A stretch of DNA of 55,941 nucleotides, from positions 1 through 55,941 of the forward strand of contig NZ_JAFRGN010000052.1 of NCBI RefSeq assembly GCF_017433805.1. Reading direction: 5' to 3'. This stretch comes from Butyrivibrio sp. (lineage in GTDB: Bacteria > Bacillota > Clostridia > Lachnospirales > Lachnospiraceae). Position 1 is the first letter of the stretch, and every line of letters starts with the position of its first letter. The notes below the pieces were generated by a model. The model saw only the letters and a list, made by a program, of their open reading frames with translations. It did not search any database and was not told where the DNA came from. A program made the position numbers and the translations under genes. Of the stretch, positions 9,608-19,491 are shown in pieces.

Positions 9608-12600
9608 ATGTATAAGGGTAGTAACCGACGCTCCAAGGCGCTAGGCAGAAGTCTTGCACTTGGTATGAGCGCCATTATGGCTGCGTCAACTATTGCTGCT
9701 GGTACAGGAAGCATCACAGCATTTGCGGAAGAGGGGGTAAGTTCTCTTGATTCTTCAGATGTGGTCGTTTTTGACGAGGAAGCTTCTGAGGCTGGTAGCG
9801 ATTCTAGTAGTGAAGCTACTTCATTAGAATCTGACACAGAAACTGATGAGGCCAAAGAGGATACTTCTGAAGATGAAGTAGTTCTTTTTGATGAGGCAGA
9901 GGAAGGAGATTCTCTTGATTCTGAGCTTGATGAGCTTGAACTTGAAGAAACTCAGGCTGAGGCTTTGGATGAAGAAACCAAGGTTACAGCTAATCTTCTT
10001 GCTACTACAGCAAATGTAAATGCTTCTGAGGATGGAGTTATTGCAGATCAGGGAGATGATGGCTTTGATAATTTCCATGAAGATCTGACTGTTGCAGATA
10101 TCAGATTCGGTACAAATGGTAACGTTTCATCTGCAAGTGTTTATAGTAAGGATAATGGATACGGTTTTAGCGATGTTGATTATAGCCAGGCAGCTGCCGG
10201 CTGGGTTAGCAACGTTTATTATCCAAGAGTTCCTGCTGTTTCTGCAGGAGCTGGCAATGTAGTTGATGCTGAAGACTATGTTGCTATTGCCAGCAAGATT
10301 TGGACAGAAACTGAATCTACAGGCTATGGCGTTTATACATATGAGAGTACATCTACTTTTGATGTAGATCTTTATAATGCTGATTACAAGGTTGAGGTTA
10401 CATTTGTTAACCCTACTGATAACGGCTATACTGCAGCTCTTGAGGCTGAGGACATTACCAAGGTTACTGGTATCTCAGTTCCCGCTGGCGGAAGTCAATC
10501 AGCTAGCTTTGAGGCTAACCTTGTAGATGGCAATCTTAATCTTAAGTTCCTTGGCACAAGTAGTGCCACATCTATGAGTGATGCGCAGACTACAAAGGTT
10601 TATGTTTCCAGAGTCAAGATCACAAGACTTGCTACTGAGGAAAGAGGTGATAAGCCTACAATCTTTGTTGCTTCTGACTCAACTGTTCAGACTTATGATT
10701 CCTATTATTATCCACAGACTGGATGGGGCCAGGTCCTTTCTTCATACTTTGGTGATTTCGTAGAGGAAAGAGAGTGTGACGACTGCGGATACAGCCAGTC
10801 ACAGGTTTACGAGACAGCAAATGTAATTGTAGAGAACCGTTCAATTGGTGGACGTTCATCCAAGTCCTTTATCGACGAGGGTAAGTTTGATGATATCCTT
10901 GAGGACATCAAGCCAGGTGACTACCTCCTTGTACAGTGGGGACACAATGACGCTACTTACTCAAGACCAAACAGATATGTTTCTGCTGATGATTTTGAGA
11001 AGTGGATGATGGTTTATGTAAATGGTGCTATAGAAAGAGGTGCAACACCTGTACTTGTTACACCAGTTGCCCGCTATAGCTACACAACTAACCCAGATGG
11101 AAGCCTTAATTCTTTTGCAAGTAACTTCGAAGCATACAGACAGGTAATGCTGAGATTATCTGCACAGTACGACATTCCTTATGTTGATCTTACACAGCGT
11201 TCTATCGATGTATGTAACAGCTTTGGAATCGAAGGCTCCAAGATGCTTTTCCTTAAGCTTGCAGCCGGTGAGGTATCTACAGGCGCATATGCAGGTGGCG
11301 TTGATGATTCTACACACCTTCAGTACTATGGAGCACTTAAGTTTGCTCAGTGTGTAGCAGAAGGTATTGTTGATTATGCTAGTGGTAAGGTTGAGGGTGC
11401 TTCAGACAAGCTTGATGATCTGGCTGGTCTTGTAGTTATCAATGCAGCTTCAGAAGCTCCGGCTAAGCCTCAGGGTCTTAAGACAACTTCAATTGGTGCC
11501 ACAAGCATTTCACTTGAGTGGGAAGCTGCTGAGGGCGCAGAGCTTTACTATATTTACAGAGCAGCACTTTCAGAGGGACAGACAATTGATGATGTAGATT
11601 TTTCAAAGGCTGATAAGTATTCTGTTTCAGGTAAGACAACTTATGTTGATCCAAGCTGTGGAGGTGGCGTTACATATGTATATGCCGTAGCAGGCTTTAA
11701 CAGCTATGGTGTAGGAGAAGTATCTGACAAGCTTGCAGTTTCTACTAAGACAGCAGGACTTCGCTTTGACTTTAACTACAACAATTCTCCTACAATGGAA
11801 GGTTGGACTGGTGTTAACCAGAATGAGATGTACACTGCTGAAAAAGGCTATGGATGGATCACAGCTCCTAACAATGGCCGTTACAGAGGTGGAAATGGCA
11901 AGGCTGATTCATCAGCTATGGCAGATGACTTTAACCTTGGTGCCGGAGAATTTGCAGTTGATCTTCCAAACGGTAAATATGAAATTACAGTATATGCTGC
12001 AGATCTTTTAAATGGAACAAGTACAATTAAGCCTGCATATTCTGCTGAGGGAATTTCAATCGGATCAATTGCCTGCAAGCAGTCTCTTGGAAGCTGCACA
12101 GGAACAGTAAGTGTTACAGATGGTCAGCTCAATCTGACAGTAGAAGGTGCTAATCAGTACATCAACGGTGTTACTATTACATCTCTTTTACCAGCTCCTG
12201 GAAACCTTGCTATTACAGAGCTTTCATTCGGTAAGACCACAGCAACATTCCTTCTGTCATTCACTAAGGTAGAGGATGCTGTATCCTACAGAGTTTACCA
12301 GAAGGGTGAGTCTGATAAGACCTTCAATCTGGTTAAGAGCTACACAGCACAGGAACTTATCGACAACGAGCTTGACTGCCGCGCTATGACAGCAGCTCTT
12401 GGTGAAACTTATTCATACTATATGACATGCGTTGTTGCAGACGGTTCTGAGTCAGCAGCAAGTAATATCGTTACTCAGTCAATGCTTGATAGCAGCGTTG
12501 CAGTACCTGCAGCAGTTCGTGGCCTTAAGTGCACAAGCCCTGAGGAAGGCCAGGAAGAGCTTCAGACAACAATTACTCTTGCATGGGATGAGAGCCCAGC

Positions 12601-15600
12601 TGATGAGAATGTTATCAAGTACATCATCTATCGTTCTGCTAAGGCAGAGAGCGATAAGGGCTTCAAGGAGTTTGTTAAGGTTGGAGAATCCTTTACAAAT
12701 TCATTTACAGATGAAGATCCTGAGATAGCTACAAATATTCACTATTACTACAAAGTTGCTGCTATGAATGCAGGTGGAATCGGTGAGCAGTCTGAGACTG
12801 TTGTAACCCCTATCGCTGGTTCACTTGTAGCAGGCGGACTTGAGTCTTATGCTACACGTGCTCTTGTAGTAATGAACCTTGCCGGAGATGCTGGAGCAGA
12901 GATCAAGGTTTCTGCAACAGATAGAGATGGCAATCCTATTACCAGAGGAAATTACCTCTCATGGAGAAGCTTCCCTGGTGACTTCAATGGCAAAGAACTT
13001 ACAACAACATTCAATGTATACAGAAATGGTACATGTATTGCACATGATATCAGTGCAACCAACATGATCGATGAGGGTGGCCTTCCATCCAATGTTTATA
13101 CTGTAGTTGGCTCCAATGATTCTTCTCTTGGCCTTACAGCAAAAGAAACAACTGTATGGGCTAACCAGTACATTGAGCTTAGCCTTAATAAGCCTGCAGA
13201 TGAGACAATGCCAGATGGTTCAACCTGTTCATATACTGCTAATGATATGTCCGTTGGAGATCTTGATGGCGATGGAGAGCTTGAACTCATCGTTAAGTGG
13301 TATCCAAGTAATGCCAAAGATAACTCAGGTTCTGGCTACACAGGAAAGACCTTCCTTGATGGATATGAGGTGGATTTTAGCACAGGTGCTGTAAGCCAGC
13401 TCTGGAGAATTGATCTTGGTGTTAACATCAGATCTGGTGCTCACTATACACAGTTCCAGGTTTGGGACTACGATGCAGACGGTATTGCAGAGATCGCAAT
13501 GAAGACTGCAGATGGTACAACAACTTACAAGAATGAGAATGGAAGTCTTGTTGAGACTGGATTTGTAGGCGCTTGCAACAGCGATGCACTTCCTACAGAT
13601 GTTATCAGTTCCAAGAACGATTACAGAAATACATCTGGTTATGTTCTCGATGGGCCAGAGTACTTCTCAATGTTCAAGGGCAACACTGGTGAACTTATTG
13701 ATACAACTAATTACGTTCCTGCTAGAGGATCAGTATCAGCATGGGGCGATGGCTATGGTAACAGAGTAGACAGATTCCTTTCTGCAACTGCTTACCTTAA
13801 CGGAACAACTCCTTTCGCAGTATTTGCTAGAGGATATTACACAAGAACAGCTCTTACAGCTTATTATCTCACAAAGACAACAGATGATGAGGGCAAAGAA
13901 GTAGAGCAGATCGGTGTTTACTGGAAGTTTGATACAGACAACATTGAAAATGGTTCAGCTTATACAGCTCAGGGTAACCACGGCCTTTCTGTCAACGATG
14001 TTGATGGCGATGGCAAAGATGAGATCGTTTACGGTTCACTTACTATCGACAACGATGGAACAGCTCTTTACTGCACAGGCCTTGGTCACGGCGATGCAAT
14101 GCATGTAAGTGACTGGATTCCTTCTAATCCTGGTCTTGAGGTTATGGATGTTCACGAGCATGACAATGCTGCATACCATGTAGAAATCCATGATGCTGAG
14201 ACAGGTGAGATGATCACTGGTTACTACACAGGTAAGGATACCGGACGTGGAATGGCATCAGATATCGATCCTACAGCAGAGGGAGCAGAGTACTGGTCAA
14301 TTGCTAACCCTAACTACAAGGGCAATGATGAGCCAGCATGGAATTCCAGAAATGCTGATGTATTTAGCTCACTTTCAGGACTTGTTGGAGCTTCAAATGG
14401 ATCAGTAGATTCAATGATCGCACTTTCAGATGGTGCTACACCAGCTGTTAACTTCTCAATGTTCTGGGATGGAGACCTTCTTGCAGATATGCAGGATCAC
14501 ACCTTCAACCAGGCTGCATATGCACCACTTACAACAACTATTGAGAAGTGGGATTATGAGAACCAGAAGTCAATAACACTCTTTGAGTCATCACAGGTTC
14601 TTACAAGTAACGGAACAAAGGGCAACCTTGGTCTTGTTGCAGATATTCTTGGTGATTACAGAGAAGAAATCATCGCAAGATGCGCTGCTGATGACAGCAG
14701 AATTAGAATTTACTCAACAACAATTCAGACTGATTATGTAGTTCCTTGCTCGCTTACAGACCTTGCTTACAGAGAAGGTGTTGCTTGGCAGAACGTTGGC
14801 TACAACCAGCCTGCACATACAAGCTATCTCATCTCTGAAGGCATTATCACTTCCAAGGTTTCAGAGGGAAGCGTTGATGCAAGTAGCGTAACAATCAACT
14901 TCACACAGGCAAATGACGGTGTATATGGTCATGATATTCAGGGCTATGTTGTTAAAAGAGCTGACGTAACAGTTGACGAAAACGGCAACCAGGTAATTGG
15001 CGATTACGAGACAGTAGGAGAGCTTGATGCTAAGGGTGTTGTAACAAGTGAAAGCCCAGTACCTCAGACAGAAAAAGTTCTCGTTGGTTATGCAGATGCA
15101 GGAGTATTCAGAAAGTTTGACTTTGGATACAAGAGCTCAAATGCTACAGGCTTTGAGAGAATCCTCGCAGATGACTATAGCTCGGCAAGAGGCTTCGGAT
15201 GGGAAGAAGGCACAGGTTCAACTGTTAACTGGAATAAGGTTGGCGTAGGAATTGAGAATGCTGGTGATACTCAGACACCTATCGAGAAAGCATGTTGCGA
15301 TCTTGACAGAAGAGACAATGAGCTTAAGTTCTTTGTAGATGCACCTTCGGGAGCATACAGAGTTGATGTTTATGCTGGTGCTGCTTATAACAACAGAGCT
15401 TATAACGATACAACAATTTATGTAAATGGTACAGATCTTGGACAGGTATCACAGTCTCCACTTGTTTCAGATATCGTTAAGTCAACAGTTGTTACTATTG
15501 GCGAAAATGACAAGATTGAAATTGTAGCTTCTAACCCAGGAAATCTTGCAATTCTCAATGCAGCTGTTATTACAAGAGTTAACCCTGTATATGAAGAAGT

Positions 15601-17629
15601 GCCTATAAATGTAGATCCTTCTGGAGCTTATTGCTTTACAGATGCTACTGTTAAGGGCGGTAAGTTCTACTCATATAAGGTTGTTTCAGTAGTAGATAAA
15701 AAAGAGAGCTACGCAAGTGCTCCTCTTACAGTTCAGACTACAGTTGCAATTGATACACTCAATGAAGAGCTTACAGCTATGGAGCTTGTTCAGGATACAC
15801 CTCTTTCTGAGGGTCAGACAGTAGCAGATCTTCTTGCAGCTCAGAAGCAGTACATTTCTGTTACAGACAGTGAAGGTGTAGAGCAGACAGTACTTATCAC
15901 ATGGAATGCTGATGATGTAGATATTCATACAGTTGGTGAATATACAGCTCATGCTTATATTCGTGGATATTCAGAGAATCCTGTTGATGTAACAGTAAGA
16001 GTAATTGCAAATGTTCCTACAGGCTATGAAGCACTTTCAGACATTAAGGTTATCCTTGGAAATGAAGTTGTTCTTCCTGCTACAGTTAAGGCAACATTCT
16101 TAAATGGAAGCACCAAGGACGTTAAGGTTACATGGAATACTGATAAGCTTGATGTAACAAAGGTTGGTGATTATACACTTACAGGTTCTATAGAAGGAAC
16201 TGAGGATACAGTAACTGTAACAGTTCATATTGTTGCAGACTACATTGTAAAGGTAGCTGATTCTTTTGCAGAGATTGAGTACCTCAATAAGAAATTTACT
16301 CTCCCAGAGACAGTTACAGCTACATATGCAAGTGGAGCAACAACAGCAGCTGCTGTAACATGGAATACTTCTGACATTGATGTATCAAGCCTTGGTACAA
16401 CCTTCAATGTAGAAGGTACAGTAGAGGATTATGAGGGCAAGGCAAACCTTAAGGTTACAGTAAATTACCCTGCACTTTATAAGTTTGACTTTGGTATCAG
16501 CACAAACCGTGTTGCTGATGGATGGACAGGTATCACTGTCAACCCTAAGAACGGCAAGCAGACTATGGAAGCTCTTGGAAGTGCCTATGCTAAGGAAAAA
16601 GGCTTTGGCTTCCAGAATAAGGATTCAGCTATTCAGGGACGTACAGAGGAATTCACATTTGATGGAACACTTCCATGGCTTGTTTACACAGACTTTGCTC
16701 TTCCTGCAGGCGAGACATTCCTTGTAGATGTAGAGAATGGTAATTATCAGGTAGAGTTCCTTAGTAACTCAGTCTACAAGAGCACAGTATCTGGAACAGT
16801 AGAAGATAAGAGCTTTACTATCAGCAATGCAGCTAATACTTATGCATCTGTTGCTGTAGATGTAGAAGTAGCAGATGGTCAGCTTACAATGACCTTTGGA
16901 ACTAACACTCCAAGACTTGGTGCTATCGTAGTTCGTAAAGCTATTACAGATGCTTCATACTATGGACCAGTAGAAGAAGAGAAAGAAGTTCCAGCTGGTA
17001 CAATAGTTAACAAGTATGGCACATACTTCTACATACTTGAAGATGGCAGCAAGTACTCAGGATGGCTTACTCTTGATGGCGAGACCTATTACTTCGATGA
17101 AAATGGTAAGATGCTCAGAGGTAAGTATCTGACAACTGATGAAGGCAAGTACTATTTTGATTCAGAAGGTCATATGCTTAAAGGAGAGTTCCTTACAAAG
17201 TATGGTTCAACCTTCTACTTCAATGAAAAGGGTATTATGCTTGTAAGCACACTTGTTGTTGCAAATGATGGCTATAAGTACTATGTGAATGCAAAGGGTC
17301 AGGTAATGCACAATAATTTCGCTGATGTTGATGATAAGAGATACTATTTTGGCGAAGATGGACGCATGCTTGTTTCACAGTTTGTAACCAAGTATACCAA
17401 GACCTATTACCTTGCTGAGGATGGATCTGTACAGTATAGTTCACTAATAGACGATGGAGACTACGTATACTATGTAGATGATAGAGGTGTAGTGATCAAG
17501 AACAGAACTCTTACTCGTGATGATGGCATCCGCTACTTTGATGGAGATGGACATATGGTAAGAAACGCTACTGTATCTATCTATGGCAAAAAATACTTCT
17601 TTGATGAGAATGGTATTCGTGTAAACTGA
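9608..17629 (+). CDS. Giant secreted CE12 acetylesterase-PL11 rhamnogalacturonan lyase
   Basis: A 2673-residue exported enzyme for rhamnogalacturonan I, the pectin backbone. Order of parts: signal peptide with likely cleavage after Ala40; acidic linker (41-160); beta-rich module (160-345); SGNH acetylesterase of CE12 type (350-590; Ser358 in ASDST, GHND 445-448, Asp567/His570 in DSTH); Fn3 (616-715); malectin-like module (716-860); two Fn3 (861-1070); PL11 lyase (1071-1750) with DLDGDG-type calcium loops; an Fn3 split by a second malectin-like module (1834-1995); three Ig-like repeats (2047-2288); a third malectin-like module (2288-2448); and about nine aromatic cell-wall/glucan-binding repeats (2462-2673). 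There is no LPXTG anchor, so the repeats probably hold it at the surface. Strong AAAAGGAGG site before ATG; own terminator. Domain calls are by motif and boundaries are approximate. Confidence 0.88.
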   Translation: MYKGSNRRSKALGRSLALGMSAIMAASTIAAGTGSITAFAEEGVSSLDSSDVVVFDEEASEAGSDSSSEATSLESDTETDEAKEDTSEDEVVLFDEAEEGDSLDSELDELELEETQAEALDEETKVTANLLATTANVNASEDGVIADQGDDGFDNFHEDLTVADIRFGTNGNVSSASVYSKDNGYGFSDVDYSQAAAGWVSNVYYPRVPAVSAGAGNVVDAEDYVAIASKIWTETESTGYGVYTYESTSTFDVDLYNADYKVEVTFVNPTDNGYTAALEAEDITKVTGISVPAGGSQSASFEANLVDGNLNLKFLGTSSATSMSDAQTTKVYVSRVKITRLATEERGDKPTIFVASDSTVQTYDSYYYPQTGWGQVLSSYFGDFVEERECDDCGYSQSQVYETANVIVENRSIGGRSSKSFIDEGKFDDILEDIKPGDYLLVQWGHNDATYSRPNRYVSADDFEKWMMVYVNGAIERGATPVLVTPVARYSYTTNPDGSLNSFASNFEAYRQVMLRLSAQYDIPYVDLTQRSIDVCNSFGIEGSKMLFLKLAAGEVSTGAYAGGVDDSTHLQYYGALKFAQCVAEGIVDYASGKVEGASDKLDDLAGLVVINAASEAPAKPQGLKTTSIGATSISLEWEAAEGAELYYIYRAALSEGQTIDDVDFSKADKYSVSGKTTYVDPSCGGGVTYVYAVAGFNSYGVGEVSDKLAVSTKTAGLRFDFNYNNSPTMEGWTGVNQNEMYTAEKGYGWITAPNNGRYRGGNGKADSSAMADDFNLGAGEFAVDLPNGKYEITVYAADLLNGTSTIKPAYSAEGISIGSIACKQSLGSCTGTVSVTDGQLNLTVEGANQYINGVTITSLLPAPGNLAITELSFGKTTATFLLSFTKVEDAVSYRVYQKGESDKTFNLVKSYTAQELIDNELDCRAMTAALGETYSYYMTCVVADGSESAASNIVTQSMLDSSVAVPAAVRGLKCTSPEEGQEELQTTITLAWDESPADENVIKYIIYRSAKAESDKGFKEFVKVGESFTNSFTDEDPEIATNIHYYYKVAAMNAGGIGEQSETVVTPIAGSLVAGGLESYATRALVVMNLAGDAGAEIKVSATDRDGNPITRGNYLSWRSFPGDFNGKELTTTFNVYRNGTCIAHDISATNMIDEGGLPSNVYTVVGSNDSSLGLTAKETTVWANQYIELSLNKPADETMPDGSTCSYTANDMSVGDLDGDGELELIVKWYPSNAKDNSGSGYTGKTFLDGYEVDFSTGAVSQLWRIDLGVNIRSGAHYTQFQVWDYDADGIAEIAMKTADGTTTYKNENGSLVETGFVGACNSDALPTDVISSKNDYRNTSGYVLDGPEYFSMFKGNTGELIDTTNYVPARGSVSAWGDGYGNRVDRFLSATAYLNGTTPFAVFARGYYTRTALTAYYLTKTTDDEGKEVEQIGVYWKFDTDNIENGSAYTAQGNHGLSVNDVDGDGKDEIVYGSLTIDNDGTALYCTGLGHGDAMHVSDWIPSNPGLEVMDVHEHDNAAYHVEIHDAETGEMITGYYTGKDTGRGMASDIDPTAEGAEYWSIANPNYKGNDEPAWNSRNADVFSSLSGLVGASNGSVDSMIALSDGATPAVNFSMFWDGDLLADMQDHTFNQAAYAPLTTTIEKWDYENQKSITLFESSQVLTSNGTKGNLGLVADILGDYREEIIARCAADDSRIRIYSTTIQTDYVVPCSLTDLAYREGVAWQNVGYNQPAHTSYLISEGIITSKVSEGSVDASSVTINFTQANDGVYGHDIQGYVVKRADVTVDENGNQVIGDYETVGELDAKGVVTSESPVPQTEKVLVGYADAGVFRKFDFGYKSSNATGFERILADDYSSARGFGWEEGTGSTVNWNKVGVGIENAGDTQTPIEKACCDLDRRDNELKFFVDAPSGAYRVDVYAGAAYNNRAYNDTTIYVNGTDLGQVSQSPLVSDIVKSTVVTIGENDKIEIVASNPGNLAILNAAVITRVNPVYEEVPINVDPSGAYCFTDATVKGGKFYSYKVVSVVDKKESYASAPLTVQTTVAIDTLNEELTAMELVQDTPLSEGQTVADLLAAQKQYISVTDSEGVEQTVLITWNADDVDIHTVGEYTAHAYIRGYSENPVDVTVRVIANVPTGYEALSDIKVILGNEVVLPATVKATFLNGSTKDVKVTWNTDKLDVTKVGDYTLTGSIEGTEDTVTVTVHIVADYIVKVADSFAEIEYLNKKFTLPETVTATYASGATTAAAVTWNTSDIDVSSLGTTFNVEGTVEDYEGKANLKVTVNYPALYKFDFGISTNRVADGWTGITVNPKNGKQTMEALGSAYAKEKGFGFQNKDSAIQGRTEEFTFDGTLPWLVYTDFALPAGETFLVDVENGNYQVEFLSNSVYKSTVSGTVEDKSFTISNAANTYASVAVDVEVADGQLTMTFGTNTPRLGAIVVRKAITDASYYGPVEEEKEVPAGTIVNKYGTYFYILEDGSKYSGWLTLDGETYYFDENGKMLRGKYLTTDEGKYYFDSEGHMLKGEFLTKYGSTFYFNEKGIMLVSTLVVANDGYKYYVNAKGQVMHNNFADVDDKRYYFGEDGRMLVSQFVTKYTKTYYLAEDGSVQYSSLIDDGDYVYYVDDRGVVIKNRTLTRDDGIRYFDGDGHMVRNATVSIYGKKYFFDENGIRVN

Positions 17630-17769: not shown

Positions 17770-19491
17770 ATGAAGCCCAAAGAATTTAACGGTAAACTGG
17801 TTCAAAAGCTTATTATTGCGGCAGTTATAGCTATCTTTGTTGTGGCGACAGTACTCACTATTGTAGGTGGTTACCAGATCAATAAGATATATAGTGAGAT
17901 GGTTAGAGAGGAACTTCGTGTTGCTGCTAATCATATACAAAGTGAGATGTCTAACGTCTGGGATGGTGACTGGGCTTATGAAGGTGGAGTCCTTACAAAA
18001 GGCGAAGAAGTAGTAGCTGAGGAATATCAGGAAATCATAGATAATCTGAAAAACGAGACAGGCCTTGAGTATTCAGTTTTCTATGGAAAAGAAAGAGTGC
18101 TTACTACACTTGTATCTAACGGCAAAAGACTTGTTGGCTACAATGCTTCTGATGCGGTTGTGGATGCAGTAATTAACAAAAAGGGCGAGAAATATACTCC
18201 TAATGCAGTTCCTGCCGGATCAGACAAAGCAATATACTGCTACTATTGTCCACTTCTTCAGAGTGATGGCACTGTTGCTGGAATGGTATTTGCAGGTAGA
18301 AACGGAGAGGATGTAGCTAATGCAGTAAGAACAGTCATTATACTTATGGTTATCATTTCGATAATCATGACTGTAGTAACTTCTACAATCGGTATAGTTG
18401 TTGCAAATACAGCATCCGTTAAGATGAGGAAGATTGCTGATGAGTTTGGTCATCTTTCACAGGGTGAGTTAAAGCTTTCTATCGATGAGAGATTGCTTAA
18501 TAGAAATGATGAGATCGGACTTCTTGCTGATGGCGCCAAGACTCTTATGGAAAAGCTTGGTTCCGTTATTGGCGATACCATGGAAATGTCTAATGAGCTT
18601 AAGAGATCTGGCGCTGAGCTTGCTGAGTCAGCTAATCAGGCTTCAAATGCATCCACTCAGGTAAGCGAAGCTGTTGATGATATTTCACGCGGCGCTGTAA
18701 ATCAGGCTGAGAGTGTAGAGACTGCAGCTGGTAATACTCAGGATATCGGAAGAGATATTGAAGAAGTTGCAGATAACGTAGAACAGTTAAATTCCTATGC
18801 TGGTGAGATGAAGACATCCTGTAACGCAGCTATGGATGCTCTTGAAAAGCTTATTAAGCAGAGTGAAGATGTTCAGGCCTCTGTAAAAGATATTGGTGAT
18901 ACGATCAGTTCTACTAATGAATCTGCAAAAGAGATTTCCAAGTTCTCTCAGGCTATCACAGAGATTGCTTCTCAGACCAATCTTTTGTCACTTAATGCAA
19001 GTATTGAGGCTGCCAGAGCAGGTGATGCTGGCAAGGGTTTTGCTGTTGTAGCTACTGAGATTGGACAGCTTGCTGTACAGAGTAGCAATAGTGCAGAAGA
19101 AATCAAGAAGATTGTAGAACAGCTTGTTGCTGATTCAGAGTCCTCTGTTGCGGTTCTTCAGAGACTTAATGAGAGCTTTTCACAGCAGGCAGAGCAGCTT
19201 GATGAAACCCAGTCTAACATGCGTAGCATGGTTGTTAATGTAGATAATGTTTCTGAGAGTACAGACAGCATTTCAGGACATATCAATAAGCTGAATGATG
19301 CTAAGGATAAGCTTGTAGAAATCATCAGTGATCTGTCAGCAATATCTGAGGAAAATGCAGCATCTACAGAAGAAACCAATGCTTCTATGCAGGAGCTTAA
19401 TGCTACATTCTCTATTATTACAGAGTCTGCGAATAAGCTTCAGAAACTGGCAGAAGACATGACTGATACAATTAGTTACTTCAAGCCATAA
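17770..19491 (+). CDS. Methyl-accepting chemotaxis protein
   Basis: A 573-residue membrane chemoreceptor. TM1 is at about residues 14-36, followed by a periplasmic-type sensor region of about 150 residues resembling a single Cache domain, TM2 at about 188-212, a HAMP segment, and a long signalling coiled coil whose tip (around 398-420, [21 protein letters not shown]) is highly conserved for CheA/CheW contact. AAGGAGG at 17754-17760 sets ATG 17770. It appears monocistronic, with a hairpin after it; no chemotaxis or flagellar genes lie in the window. Its placement after the secreted pectinase suggests, without proof, sensing of a sugar or breakdown product. The ligand cannot be read from the sequence. 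Confidence 0.93.

Follow-up and report, generated by a model that had tools for sequence, protein, structure and literature searches.

A conserved CE12-PL11 fusion protein of Butyrivibrio, most likely for rhamnogalacturonan I at the cell surface

Introduction

Plant cell walls contain rhamnogalacturonan I (RG-I), a hard and acetylated component in whose breakdown rumen Butyrivibrio share. The locus described here raises the question of whether one bacterial polypeptide may both deacetylate this polymer and cleave its backbone and, if so, how such a protein is built. The gene in question lies on contig NZ_JAFRGN010000052.1 of Butyrivibrio sp. (55,941 nucleotides; hereafter the window) and encodes 2673 residues. 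A preliminary description of this DNA had proposed that the protein joins a CE12-type acetylesterase to a PL11 lyase, together with several binding modules and wall-binding repeats, and had pictured it as a free-standing, self-contained pectin machine.

Results

The gene is a single open reading frame (ORF) with an ATG start and without an internal stop, and the frame is likewise open in the whole-genome copy (G000:C50). Pfam was run on the entire 2673-residue protein, and the modules were also scanned singly. The features that bear directly on the fusion are as follows.

9608..17629, + strand: whole gene, CE12-PL11 fusion, probable orthologue of Est12B, discussed below (ORF, translation, homologue search)
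10643..11407, + strand: CE12-type SGNH esterase domain, residues 346-600, with Ser358, Gly415, Asn447, Asp567 and His570
11408..12937, + strand: spacer between the modules, residues 601-1110 (Pfam; length conserved)
12941..13159, + strand: RGI_lyase beta-sheet domain of PL11, residues 1112-1184 (Pfam, 35.0 bits against a cut-off of 27.8)
13169..14851, + strand: PL11 beta-propeller domain RGL11_C, residues 1188-1748 (Pfam E 5.9e-175)
14297..14449, + strand: 51-residue stretch at the position of YesX loop 439-447, residues 1564-1614 (alignment)

The esterase module matched PF00657 (GDSL lipase/acylhydrolase) at residues 357-582 with 30.7 bits (cut-off 23.6). PF13472 scored 31.1 bits in the whole protein, just below its cut-off of 32.9, and 36.6 bits with the domain alone. 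Sequence matches in the Protein Data Bank (PDB) were the rhamnogalacturonan acetylesterase of Aspergillus aculeatus (1deo) and YxiM of Bacillus subtilis (2o14), and structure comparison with a model gave an SGNH/GDSL fold close to RG acetylesterase. The SGNH fold and motif blocks, on which the CE12 assignment rests, are common to all three, at 24% identity to 1deo and 31% to 2o14 in structural alignment; unlike the window protein, the 1deo and 2o14 chains carry no lyase. The five residues listed above, which we take to be the catalytic Ser-Asp-His and the oxyanion Gly and Asn, are invariant in 35 of 35 fused proteins of the clade described below.

The lyase module has the solved PL11 fold, with its beta-propeller domain above the curated cut-off, and its PDB sequence matches were YesX, YesW and 4cag. 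YesX and YesW, both PL11 enzymes of B. subtilis, share this fold at 47-49% identity over 551-566 aligned residues, but they have no fused esterase. All nine residues that we take to form the YesW ligand site (H363, H399, D401, R452, N532, G533, T534, K535 and Y595) are identical in the window lyase (His1458, His1494, Asp1496, Arg1547, Asn1668, Gly1669, Thr1670, Lys1671 and Tyr1732). Since the active-site residues are conserved in both CE12 and PL11, the idea that one module is dead was rejected. Pfam, the PDB matches and these residues thus bear out the proposal that one chain combines a CE12-type esterase and a PL11 lyase with anchor-type repeats, and both enzymes look active.

A frameshift or assembly artefact was also rejected, because one frame holding both modules recurs in 12 of the 79 genomes of the genus and in other genera; nor is the fusion unique to the source genome. 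Whole-protein matches (E <= 1e-60) were present in 14 of the 79 genomes. In the two beyond those 12, the frame stops at an apparent contig end (L022) or the modules are encoded by separate neighbouring genes (L023). At the family level, nine of 397 genomes (source included) had one match spanning both modules, and one more had it split over two contigs; among the matches listed for 391 genomes at the class level, such a match was confined to the source genome. Named genomes were also scanned with patterns derived from the window protein, which biases the result towards its relatives; 53 loci were returned. Both modules lay in one ORF in 27 of these, from Butyrivibrio, Lachnotalea, Anaerobium, Konateibacter, Galacturonibacter, further Lachnospiraceae, others and one Enterococcus lemanii.

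Phylogenetic comparison started from the best matches fetched (143 PL11 modules, 121 without near copies, 119 without two of <520 residues). With YesX and YesW added, the PL11 tree had 121 rows, and the insert columns were left out. This tree and the corresponding CE12 tree (65 rows) were quick LG+G4 reconstructions with SH-aLRT support only, and both gave long-branch warnings, above all near the fusions of reverse order. The CE12-PL11 proteins fell into one group of 38 rows (SH-aLRT 94), made up of 35 fused proteins, two Roseburia sequences without CE12 and one 5'-cut sequence. The one other row labelled CE12-PL11, L150, falls elsewhere; it is an unrelated giant protein whose CE12 match is weak. 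Seven fetched loci (L142, L143, L144, L154, L155, L156 and L157) have the modules in the opposite order, with PL11 ahead of CE12, and four of them encode compact proteins of 1035-1088 residues. These seven occupy three or four other places in the tree (4 label changes), and the CE12 tree likewise separates the CE12 modules of the two orders. On these trees the CE12-then-PL11 order is one clade, mostly of Lachnospirales. How often fusion occurred is uncertain, because gain and loss cannot be told apart from changes on a tree.

PL11 and CE12 also occur as separate neighbouring genes within the same genus (L023, L028, L145, L147 and L148). At L145:1031-4054 and L148:981-5099 the stop-to-stop frames of the two neighbours are in register, one stop codon apart, and at G067:C22:50325-52865, where PL11 and CE12 are again neighbours, the match crosses one TGA. 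Such pairs (L145, L148, G067) look as if fusions of either order could arise from them. Three further loci stood out. The fusion labelled Enterococcus lemanii (L073:3236-8542, 1769 amino acids) falls within the clade, with Eubacterium sp. UBA5416 (L085) as its partner, reflecting either horizontal transfer or a mislabelled contig. A protein labelled Candidatus Gastranaerophilales (L070) nests among Lachnospiraceae and is possibly from a mis-binned contig. Konateibacter massiliensis (L078:5017-17718) carries a tandem pair of CE12-PL11 genes.

We then asked whether fusions of this kind are already on record. Butyrivibrio proteoclasticus B316T has an orthologue of the window protein with 84% identity over the whole length. 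It holds the only PL11 of that genome and is the only long frame (2687 amino acids) among three CE12 matches, the others being of 241 and 580. In this strain, Est12B (bpr_I1204) is named as a family 12 carbohydrate esterase (PMC5716241) and belongs, in the 2010 listing, to nine cell-associated proteins of >1000 amino acids with wall-binding repeats (PMC2914790, PMC5716241). Because the B316T orthologue is so similar, is the sole PL11 and the only long CE12 frame, and Est12B is large and has such repeats, the window protein and Est12B are very probably orthologues, the B316T locus being bpr_I1204 by inference. The name given in PMC5716241 is that of an esterase, whereas the window protein shows CE12 and PL11; in the main text of PMC2914790, neither 'PL11' nor 'rhamnogalacturonan' occurs. 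Two Ruminococcus fusions are tabulated in PMC4081043 (tables 4 and 5): PL11-Doc-CBM35-CE12 of R. flavefaciens (strain FD-1, judging from where the entry stands in the table) and PL11-CE12-CBM13-CBM13-CBM37 of R. albus 8. Like the window protein, these place both families in one polypeptide. They differ from it, as far as tabulated architectures tell, in having the opposite order and a dockerin or CBM37 in place of the wall repeats. With these fusions tabulated and Est12B very probably an orthologue, the PL11/CE12 fusion is known as a kind, and the novelty that the preliminary description had seen in the pairing does not hold. What is added here is the single clade for one order, the reverse order elsewhere in the tree, the conserved spacing, the variable ends and the lengths of an insert in the lyase.

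The spacing is conserved within the clade. In 34 of the 35 fused proteins, which are 44-93% identical to the window protein, the CE12-to-PL11 stretch measures 488-514 residues; the exception is the second L078 copy, with 296. The part before CE12 varies from 217 to 441 residues and the part after PL11 from 175 to 1652 (26 proteins with an uncut ORF). Ten tails were scanned for end domains (L070, L071, L072, L073, L075, L076, L081, L082, L085 and L086). Choline-type repeats like those of the window protein were found in Butyrivibrio L076; other tails carried dockerin and FIVAR (L085), FIVAR (L070), Flg_new (L072, L082), Big_2 (L071, L072, L073), or only Big_4 or galactose-binding-like domains (L075, L081, L086). 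By eye, sortase-like or membrane tails were seen in L070, L074, L075, L077, L081 and L084. Judged from sequence, the family seems to combine a constant catalytic core with ends that can be exchanged.

These data bear on an alternative in which the fusion serves nothing beyond shared anchoring and expression: the modules would work on separate chains or at separate times, without channelling or distance-dependent synergy. The seven opposite-order loci and the separate neighbouring genes of the same genus (such as L145, L147 and L148) mean that neither the order nor fusion itself is needed, and in the Roseburia members the ORF has no CE12 at all. Against this, the spacer is held nearly constant while the flanking parts vary. 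We regard this alternative as quite possible, though not as the better account.

Outside the core, the remaining parts of the protein were assigned as follows.

9608..9730, + strand: likely signal peptide, residues 1-41 (by-eye reading of the translation)
10124..10543, + strand: galactose-binding-like domain (GBD) 1, AGA-YXIM_GBD, residues 173-312 (25.2 bits, below the cut-off of 27; model, Foldseek 2o14)
Within the spacer, + strand: fn3-like part, residues 620-709 (21.1 bits, below the cut-off of 25)
Within the spacer, + strand: GBD 2, residues 720-847 (45.8 bits, above the Pfam cut-off)
15113..15394, + strand: GBD 3 (weak), residues 1836-1929 (18.6 bits, below the cut-off of 27)
15590..16327, + strand: stretch with three Big_4 Ig-like matches, residues 1995-2240, best at 2146-2198
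16478..16891, + strand: GBD 4, residues 2291-2428 (24.5 bits, below the cut-off of 27)
17012..17626, + strand: choline-binding/cell-wall-binding repeats, residues 2469-2673, predicted anchor (Pfam, PDB matches)

An acidic stretch rich in Glu, Asp and Ser follows the likely signal peptide up to about residue 145 (by eye), and GBD 1 precedes the esterase, as a GBD does in YxiM. Apart from the fn3-like part and GBD 2, the spacer gave no clear domain assignment. A CBM35 with unsaturated galacturonic acid (2w47) was considered as a match for the GBD-CE12 model and rejected as too weak (Foldseek E 5.4e-5, TM 0.48 by target, rmsd 12.5). In the whole-protein scan, Pfam gave four AGA-YXIM galactose-binding-like stretches, three Big_4 matches and the choline-binding repeats. 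The 'several binding modules' of the preliminary description therefore stand, although GBD 1, 3 and 4 and the fn3-like part, all below cut-off when scanned singly, are weakly identified; binding by any of the modules is predicted. When scanned alone, the tail matched PF01473, PF19127 and PF19085 above cut-off. The wall-repeat carbohydrate-active enzymes of Butyrivibrio are large secreted proteins that end in PF01473-type repeats, and the window protein conforms to this pattern, with attachment to the cell wall predicted. By sequence, the tail repeats also resemble those of pneumococcal choline-binding proteins, of glucosyltransferases and of the repeat region of large clostridial toxins; Pfam showed no toxin domain in the 2673 residues.

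The lyase itself carries an insert that may bear on its mode of action. Between a conserved Trp and an NF..WDGD motif there are 51 residues in the window lyase, 30 in YesX and 21 in YesW. The PDB title terms YesX 'exotype', and we take its extra loop (PPGNDGMSY, 439-447) to cause its exo action, a role that Ochiai et al. are said to have described in 2009. The insert is 32-51 residues long in 35 of 36 CE12-PL11 rows (L150, with 24, being the exception) and 19-22 in all seven reverse-order fusions. This comparison suggests that the window lyase works from chain ends like YesX, and not inside chains like YesW, a prediction without statistical support that we put forward tentatively.

Several findings weigh against it. 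The window insert differs from the YesX loop in sequence as well as in length, and the Z scores of the window lyase to YesX and YesW are tied. An insert of at least 32 residues is also present in eight of 76 unfused PL11 rows, three of which belong to the clade (both from Roseburia and the truncated L087). A test by tree pairs did not support a link between fusion and a long insert (of three independent pairs, one spoke for it, one spoke against it and one showed no difference; p 1). Furthermore, on potato RG-I YesW and YesX alike yielded mainly the unsaturated disaccharide (PMC8787155), which makes their modes harder to tell apart by end products; the contrast would be visible in early products at best. 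We found no paper joining YesX, YesW, exo and loop. An endo-acting lyase whose long insert recognises side chains or acetyl groups, or contacts the spacer, has to be considered. At 32-51 residues, and modelled as a well-ordered stretch (pLDDT 85-94 by block), the insert exceeds what copying YesX would need, and its presence in unfused rows fits this account as well; its position, where exo-type YesX differs from YesW (with the loop's role as assumed above), speaks for end action. We judge the endo alternative to be close to evenly balanced.

The gene is flanked upstream by Hsp33 on the opposite strand and downstream by a methyl-accepting chemotaxis protein, beyond which lie genes for a Rex-like regulator, YjeF and alanine racemase and, further out, polyamine and housekeeping genes. 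Given such neighbours, a pectin gene cluster was rejected and the gene is, as first proposed, free-standing: Pfam on 30 of the 50 ORFs of at least 150 amino acids, nearest neighbours included, found only one other carbohydrate enzyme, a GH13-type protein ~32 kb away. The chemotaxis protein (17770-19491) has an sCache_3 sensor, and a link to the sensing of pectin products is possible. Elsewhere in the source genome (98% complete) there are two further CE12-like places and five GH88/GH105-family matches; the fusion lyase is the only PL11 found.

Discussion

The results presented above are consistent with a model, which we hold with considerable confidence, whereby the protein is a secreted, wall-tethered bifunctional RG-I deacetylase-lyase. 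The N-terminal GBD-CE12 unit would strip acetyl esters off RG-I, and the spacer of ~500 residues would keep the PL11 propeller lyase at a set distance, where it would cut the deacetylated backbone via beta-elimination. Retained on the Butyrivibrio surface by its C-terminal repeats, the enzyme would release unsaturated RG oligosaccharides beside the cell, to be finished by GH88/GH105-type hydrolases. Sequence and models give both modules, their conserved active-site residues, the spacing, the anchor-type repeats and the GH88/GH105-type genes; activities, order of steps, tethering and uptake are predicted from them. It is plausible that acetyl groups block the lyase, and the logic of pairing the two enzymes is reasonable, with some support from fusions in both orders.

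Certain points tell against this model. The predicted anchor would tether the protein through a putative ligand on the Butyrivibrio cell, and one member from this genus (L064) ends, by eye, without wall-binding repeats. Two uncultured Roseburia members (L107 and L112, insert 32 residues) lie inside the clade with a lyase and no CE12 in the ORF, so the fusion is not indispensable; they look like a natural loss of CE12. CE12-like SGNH enzymes also accept acetylated xylan and other esters, and the RG-I specificity of the esterase is therefore read from its lyase partner. In a corresponding alternative, CE12 would serve chiefly as an acetyl xylan esterase or as a general pectin acetylesterase, with the whole protein attacking several polymers at a wall junction. 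The breadth of CE12-like substrates favours this and the lyase partner favours RG-I; we consider it unlikely. Both modules are present with their active-site residues kept and the fusion type is on record, but the literature searches made found no assay of a CE12-PL11 fusion.

The catalytic modules recognised address only the RG-I backbone and acetyl esters, and Pfam gave no homogalacturonan, galactan or arabinan module, so 'self-contained pectin machine' was too broad a term. A more ambitious extension of the model would make the whole clade surface-held, end-acting deacetylating RG-I lyases, in which an esterase at fixed distance serves an exo lyase advancing in disaccharide steps, with an exo loop independent of that of YesX, and the reverse fusions would be endo-acting. 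We think this rather improbable as a whole.

In conclusion, the fusion is real, ordinary in kind and well conserved, and most likely serves the use of RG-I at the cell surface. An esterase and a lyase at fixed spacing, together with fusions of opposite order and with other anchors, allow one to test within a single molecule whether deacetylation limits the cleavage of RG-I, and comparison of the inserts predicts exo action here and endo action in the reverse fusions.
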